DNA from: Halalkalicoccus sp. CG83
GTDB lineage: Archaea; Halobacteriota; Halobacteria; Halobacteriales; Halalkalicoccaceae
Direction of reading: 5' to 3'
Length of the DNA: 64,000 nt
Assembly: GCF_037081715.1 (NCBI RefSeq)
Contig: NZ_JAZDDH010000001.1
Location: forward strand, 868,001-932,000
Each line of letters begins with the position of its first letter. The first letter of the stretch is position 1. The notes under the pieces are model-generated. The model had not been told where the DNA came from and made no database searches. It saw only the letters and a program-made list of their open reading frames with translations. The position numbers and the translations under genes are program-made. Below are positions 37,430-38,284 of the stretch, piece by piece.

Positions 37430-38284
37430 TCAGCGGCGAACGGCGCGGATCGCTTCGAGCACCGCTTCGTGGACGGTTCCGTTCGAGACGACCAGCCCCT
37501 CGCTGTCGTGGCGCCAGCGCTCGCCCTCGAGATCGGTGGCCCGTCCGCCCGCCTTGCGAACGAGGTGGATCCCGGCGACGGTGTCCCAGGGGTTGGGCCG
37601 GACGTCGCTCATCGCCCCGTCGAGGCCGCCGTCGGCGATCATGTTCAGCGTCCCCTGTGCACAGCCGAACCGACGCATGTCGCCGAAGCGCTCGATGATC
37701 GCCCGCACCGCGGCGGCGAACTCCCCGCGCTGCTCGAAGTCCCACCAGAGCGTCGGCGAGACCATACAGGTCTTGGGGTCCCCGCGCTCGCTCACCGAGA
37801 TCGCCTCGCCGTTCAGCCGCGTCTCCTCGCCGTCGGCGACGTAGCAGTCCTCGAGCGCCGGCATCGCGTTGGTCGCCGCGACCGGCTCGCCGTCGATCAC
37901 GGCCGCGACGCTGGTCGCCCAGATCGGGATCCCGCGGACGTAGTTCGCGGTGCCGTCGATCGGATCGATCACCCAGGCGGGGCCCTCCTCGGGGACCTCC
38001 TTCAGCGCCTCCTCTGCTCGCGGGCTCTGCCCGCTCGCATGGTCCGTGGAGCTCGGCTCCACGCCGTCTTCCTCGCCAACGATCGTGTCGTCGGGAAACT
38101 CCTCGCGGATCACCTCGATCACGTGGCTCTGTGCGTCCCGATCCGCCTGGGTGACGACGTCGGTCTTCCCGTCCTTGGTCTCGACGGGGATGTCGGTGCG
38201 GAACCGATCGAGCGCGAGGTCGCCCCCGGCGCGGGCGGCACGTTCGGCCACCTCGCTACGGTGCGTGAGGTCGTCCATGTCCAT
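37430..38284 (-). CDS. Inositol-monophosphatase family phosphatase
   Basis: 284 residues. The metal site is complete: GEEDG (Glu-Glu) and WVIDPIDGTANYVRG, and the C-terminal NPWDTVAGIHLVRKAGG block is present. Archaeal members hydrolyse inositol phosphate, fructose 1,6-bisphosphate or NADP. Between these two motifs, after GVEPS, there are about 17 odd residues (STDHASGQSPRAEEA) that coincide with two palindromic hairpins in the DNA, apparently an in-frame insertion. The insertion is in a surface loop by family comparison, so the enzyme may still work. Confidence 0.88.
   Translation of the reverse strand: MDMDDLTHRSEVAERAARAGGDLALDRFRTDIPVETKDGKTDVVTQADRDAQSHVIEVIREEFPDDTIVGEEDGVEPSSTDHASGQSPRAEEALKEVPEEGPAWVIDPIDGTANYVRGIPIWATSVAAVIDGEPVAATNAMPALEDCYVADGEETRLNGEAISVSERGDPKTCMVSPTLWWDFEQRGEFAAAVRAIIERFGDMRRFGCAQGTLNMIADGGLDGAMSDVRPNPWDTVAGIHLVRKAGGRATDLEGERWRHDSEGLVVSNGTVHEAVLEAIRAVRR
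38011..38062 (-). repeat. Palindromic element inserted in the IMPase gene
   Basis: Two adjacent perfect hairpins: GCGGGC-TCT-GCCCGC (38020-38034) and GTGGAGC-TCG-GCTCCAC (38046-38062). Together they span about 50 nt and encode the unusual loop of the phosphatase. Short GC-rich palindromic insertions that keep reading frame occur in haloarchaeal genes; I infer that this is one. Confidence 0.6.

Follow-up and report, generated by a model that had tools for sequence, protein, structure and literature searches.

Short palindromic DNA situated in frame within protein genes is known from the Rickettsia palindromic elements (RPEs), which occur in assorted conserved genes, where they are tolerated, and also between genes, and similar in-frame palindromic repeats are present in Wolbachia (PMC2229807, PMC6649704, PMC2996958; these and the papers below are drawn upon in part). 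RPEs measure 105-146 bp (PMC2229807) and lose their repeat identity over time (PMC6649704). Among archaea, coding palindromic repeats have been reported for Methanocaldococcus jannaschii (Suyama 2005, as cited in PMC2229807 and PMC2996958). Moreover, GTAG/CGTC-tagged REPs form small, often paired hairpins that are mostly extragenic and RAYT-linked, with some located within replication and repair genes (PMC3733652), and Haloquadratum walsbyi harbors PATEs and small mobile repeats, i.e. transposase-free palindromic sequences without target duplication, the PATE palindromes being related to IS605-type ends (PMC3119063).

The haloarchaeal element analyzed here resembles RPEs in being a palindromic repeat placed in frame in many unrelated genes. 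It is however archaeal, comprises two hairpins in 51-54 nt and is set apart by these dimensions from the RPEs as described in the cited sections, and it uses one frame only with stems that stay paired, whereas RPEs are described there as losing repeat identity. The M. jannaschii repeats, compared through their description in the citing papers, are likewise archaeal palindromes fused into protein genes, but that report concerns one methanogen, while the present element spans a whole class. The hairpin pair and the replication and repair hosts recall the GTAG-REPs, as may the GTAG tag of some copies; in contrast to these, as far as the consulted part of the REP paper describes them, the haloarchaeal element is mostly in frame and no RAYT link was found, and the text of PMC3733652 holds no word beginning with 'Halo'. 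PATEs share the haloarchaeal setting, the palindromic and transposase-free nature and the absence of target duplication, yet the consulted part of the PATE account mentions no in-frame coding copies, and a link to IS605-type ends was not seen for our element near 20 Y1 loci. A search of the open-access literature, which covered few subscription papers, yielded no account of palindromes placed in frame in haloarchaeal genes, and the family is probably undescribed so far.

The palindromic insert of the IMPase gene

All results are computational. The window, which denotes the whole 64-kb stretch of Halalkalicoccus sp. CG83 DNA that was analyzed, includes the following features:

37430..38284, minus strand: host gene, inositol monophosphatase (IMPase) family protein of 284 aa (Pfam PF00459, E 3.6e-51; PDB homologues, e.g. 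2p3n, E 8e-33)
38015..38068, minus strand, edges +/- about one codon: 18-codon in-frame insert encoding DGVEPSSTDHASGQSPRA (12 orthologues aligned, 10 without the insert)
38045..38063, minus strand: hairpin 1, a perfect 8-bp stem with a 3-nt loop, arms 38045-38052 and 38056-38063 (inverted-repeat scan; covariation across copies)
38015..38039, minus strand: hairpin 2, with a CGAG/CGAG tandem G.A mismatch, covarying outer pairs and a 3-nt loop, arms 38015-38025 and 38029-38039 (inverted-repeat scan; covariation)
38018..38066 (contig 906018-906066), minus strand: 49-nt core matching covariance model R1 at 68 bits, E 4.9e-11; the IMPase copy is one of the eight in the model, so that it matches by construction

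The insert is located between the GEE and DPIDGT motifs of the enzyme. An earlier note on this DNA had described two adjacent perfect palindromes encoding about 17 unusual residues at 38011-38062. Indeed, two neighboring inverted repeats are found in an in-frame stretch; perfection is however limited to hairpin 1, as hairpin 2 pairs at 9 of the 11 positions of its arms, with the two unpaired positions forming the tandem G.A (CGAG opposite CGAG). The stretch amounts to 18 codons, best placed at 38015-38068, and within the span 38011-38062 hairpin 1 has one of its arms truncated.

The aligned IMPase relatives have a short link at the insertion point, congruent with what had been assumed for the family, and in the comparison with PDB 2p3n query residues 75-101 meet only about five residues. 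Among 13 IMPase genes the insert is present in two, absent in ten and replaced in one (G012) by a longer link of unrelated sequence. The carriers are the window's genome and its congener G007, with 18 extra codons at the same codon. It is missing from five congeners (G001, G002, G003, G006 and G008), from three further genomes of the family (G009-G011) and from two of other families (G005 and G013). A loop shared by all relatives, which would have made it an ancestral feature, is thus not what is observed, and the stretch is an insertion, as originally proposed. The same unusual GTGGAGC stem in the window and G007 copies suggests, as judged from sequence, that a single insertion was inherited by both. 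A tree of the genus built on 845 alignment columns of IMPase and PheT, intended to date this insertion, reached support values of 18-48 at the relevant nodes and gave no resolution.

Dispersal over haloarchaeal genomes

Further copies came to light when the genome of the window was searched with 81 bases, and eight copies, the one in IMPase included, were aligned to generate model R1, excluding the weak matches L005, L007 and L008. R1 detects 23 places in this genome at E<=1. The 14 best copies are all within conserved genes, each with a clear Pfam match, and all share one strand and phase as the best reading of one flank or both, L053, L198 and L204 being among those that are weak in this respect. 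Their host genes, by Pfam, are:

Seven genes: cupin, IMPase, PheRS beta (PheT), class-I glutamine amidotransferase, heavy-metal P-type ATPase, GCS2, FAD-binding oxidoreductase
Seven further genes: HAD phosphatase, PolD large subunit, UvrC, metallo-beta-lactamase fold, Cdc48, chlorite dismutase/ABM, DJ-1/PfpI

The fifteenth listed place (L206) falls outside this pattern. Six congeners lack the insert in PheT, and the alignment of PheT to human-type PheRS beta (3l4g) skips query residues 149-175, which constitute the insert stretch; the IMPase and PheT inserts measure 51-54 nt.

Two further arrangements were observed in these searches. In the glutamine-amidotransferase gene (L025 / L183, G000:C1:597869) a second Ser/Asp-rich coding stretch, DEASGGSSDSSDGG, follows downstream of the element, and L050 of another genome has a similar tail, which points to a possible longer version of the element. 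At L036 (G000:C2:178946-178966) and L206 a hairpin-2-like copy terminates an ORF (...KSNGRRP*) with a further palindromic stretch behind, possibly supplying the C-terminus.

Beyond this genome, R1, whose E-values are rough, has matches with E<=0.1 in 43 of 59 relatives (best values down to 1e-12 per genome), and at E<=0.001 it matches 233 of the 292 genomes of the class, representing 64 of 77 genera. In a sample of the phylum 27 of 246 genomes are positive, all 27 listed in the window's order. An exact-pattern scan of named genomes returned at least 120 stretches, and the 80 analyzed all carry haloarchaeal titles except L259 and L304 ('Euryarchaeota archaeon'). The 156 coding copies resolve into about 102 gene sites, some of them over-split and some retained in several genera; haloarchaeal genomes are related, and copy counts therefore overstate independent events. 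The earlier note had suggested looking for the palindrome elsewhere in the genome; it does recur there and in most haloarchaea, nearly always in one reading frame. In a separate scan no contig of a viral collection matched the exact pattern, and viral carriers were rejected on this basis.

We hold with good confidence that the IMPase insert is one copy of a dispersed haloarchaeal coding-palindrome element that acts like RPEs and intragenic REPs. Such an element, consisting of two hairpins in about 51-54 nt dispersed over haloarchaeal genomes, would give rise to copies at new places in genes. Those in the acidic, stop-free frame would be retained in short linking stretches of conserved enzymes, and those in other frames, with an Arg-rich, hydrophobic or stopped peptide, would be removed by selection. 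Following insertion, the stems stay paired while loop letters drift, which would come about by correction of the palindrome, by exchange between copies or through a requirement for the DNA hairpin. Against this explanation count the lack of a target duplication and of a mobilizer, the 37 of 137 copies without a coding flank, and some larger-loop copies that are intergenic.

Insertion edges and candidate mobilizers

The palindrome had initially been termed mobile. Dispersed copies and empty sites are both observed, whereas movement itself is deduced from old events, since no insertion was caught between near-identical strains, and neither transposition nor a mobilizing enzyme was found. No target-site duplication signal emerged from 123 copies (best of 40 registers z 2.5), which, together with the two separate hairpins in place of terminal inverted repeats, separates the element from MITEs.

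The palindromic pair and the absent target duplication, as well as GTAG at the 5' foot of 28 of 137 copies (20 of 57 non-coding and 8 of 80 coding), resembling GTAG-tagged REPs, would also be expected if IS200/IS605-type ends had left a PATE-like remnant or if a Y1 (RAYT) transposase had mobilized a REP. Y1_Tnp is however present in 23 of 59 genomes, and the window's genome has no Y1 transposase, nor do the element-rich G041, G014, G007 and G002. Furthermore, the 66 kb surrounding 20 Y1 genes contain one hairpin-2-like and zero hairpin-1-like sequences, near background. A Y1/RAYT transposase was consequently rejected as the mobilizer, being missing from the window's genome and without element-type hairpins enriched beside its genes, and we consider an origin of this type unlikely.

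Intergenic larger-loop relatives at G041 and G014 loci (e.g. L195, L197, L199, L144 and L146) are often preceded by TTTTTGCGAGTAGCG and followed by GAGCAGAGAG, in a REP/BIME-like fashion. At L371 (G041:C17:53000-58600) two intergenic copies of opposite orientation have matching long flanks on both sides, and the stretch between the flanks holds ORFs that by eye appear HTH/CBS-like and proteasome-like, as part of a larger mosaic repeat. A gene carried between such paired copies in G041 was considered and rejected, as the L371 and L373 ORFs look ordinary by eye and lie within larger intergenic mosaics. At L088, L063, L112, L113 and L014 the element is found, by eye, within the loop of another such hairpin (GCGAACGGC ... 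GCCGTGAGC or similar), an apparent nested insertion.

Stem pairing and reading frame

Copies found by R1 are partly selected for pairing, rendering the pattern set the fairer test. Stem 1 pairs that the search pattern leaves free are paired in 79, 78 and 77 of 79 distinct elements (shuffle maxima 59, 55 and 73), and the pair just outside the CGAG block in 78 of 79. Across 123 coding 49-nt copies the CGAG on both arms, i.e. the tandem G.A, is kept in 120, and core pairs are Watson-Crick in 1700 of 1722. Conceivably, the hairpins could be selected as mRNA structures (for stability, processing or pausing), with the peptide as a by-product, congruent with a perfect stem 1 in 110 of the 123 copies despite 20 different stem-1 arms, and with paired changes also at orthologous sites, where 24 pair differences are both-sided vs 12 one-sided (53 non-independent comparisons at 24 chosen sites). 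Such selection predicts an excess of G-U over A-C mismatches, but the counts are equally low, 7 G-T vs 6 A-C among the 1722 pairs, a comparison of low power, and presence in the same gene is patchy between congeners for both IMPase and PheT. Since many paired changes swap A-T and C-G together, like one variant replacing another, exchange between copies or palindrome correction explains them as well as selection on structure does. We regard an mRNA role as quite unlikely.

The reading frame was assigned using a codon-usage caller trained on 35 ORFs of the window and applied to 300-nt flanks. One set comprised 137 copies, i.e. 159 R1 matches reduced to one per source (the remainder either covered the same place again through an overlapping locus or were second, weaker matches), from regions that were the best of the matches listed in the 59 relatives, down to about E 3.4e-6. 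Both flanks are coding in the same frame in 60 of these, 59 in +1 and one in +2, while 21 have one coding flank, in +1, 37 no call on either flank and 19 other mixtures. The 80 pattern loci behave similarly, with all 52 same-frame pairs of flanks in +1, 18 loci with one flank in +1, seven without a call and three other mixtures. Taken together, with a slight overlap of about 10 same places (e.g. L249/L049 and L254/L054), 111 of 112 same-frame copies use one strand and phase, vs one in six at control sites, where the same caller made 392 same-frame calls at 960 random positions, 57-74 in each of the six frames. Among coding copies, 73 of 80 have a length of 1 mod 3, as do 33 of the 57 others.

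Stop codons do not explain this bias, as 76-79 of the 80 copies are open in each of four unused frames, the fifth being stopped in 47 of 80. The used frame is the only net acidic one and encodes a stop-free, hydrophilic, Ser/Gly/Pro-rich peptide of about 17-18 residues, consensus-like SSAERSSADRSSGQSPRED, whereas the unused open frames specify basic or more hydrophobic peptides. The earlier note had attributed frame maintenance to selection; the frame pattern is strongly supported, and selection after insertion would be a plausible cause.

A different account of the same pattern is a 'coding' selfish DNA, whose phase would be a trait of its own: it would spread preferentially from coding copy to coding copy, arriving in frame above chance, e.g. 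by exchange guided by acidic-codon microhomology, and its hairpins would be kept as DNA structures for spread. We judge this to be rather improbable. Alternatively, the peptide itself may be useful, as a flexible acidic loop or as a site of modification or binding selected as protein, with the palindrome a relic of its origin. The single frame, the acidic hydrophilic composition and the sites kept across several genera are in line with this notion, and haloarchaeal proteins are acidic, which an acidic insert peptide fits. Paired changes, however, keep the stems and alter the residues (SAERSSAD vs SEARSASD at one site, L049 and L274), and a protein-only role would not hold the core pairs at the level described above; we find such a role very unlikely. 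Lastly, a chance event or compositional artefact in GC-rich coding DNA, towards which the many short hairpins of the window may hint (13 perfect 8-bp stems with 3-nt loops vs 4.3 in Markov-1 simulations), is refuted by the existence of an element family and of empty sites, and with a hairpin pair of this size and spacing found once in the 64-kb window and never in 15 Markov-1 simulated windows, and E-values reaching 1e-12 per genome, we assign it virtually no probability.

The placing of palindromes in frame, already reported from Rickettsia, Wolbachia and one methanogen, here extends through a whole archaeal class with genetically tractable members and includes essential genes. If the selfish reading were true, the element would supply core enzymes of haloarchaea with new protein loops across the class. 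For annotators and structural biologists the family calls for caution, as many haloarchaeal 'insertions' are members of one repeat family. Moreover, with many species available for comparison, tests become feasible of how palindromes get into protein genes, why a single frame is used, and whether new protein segments result.
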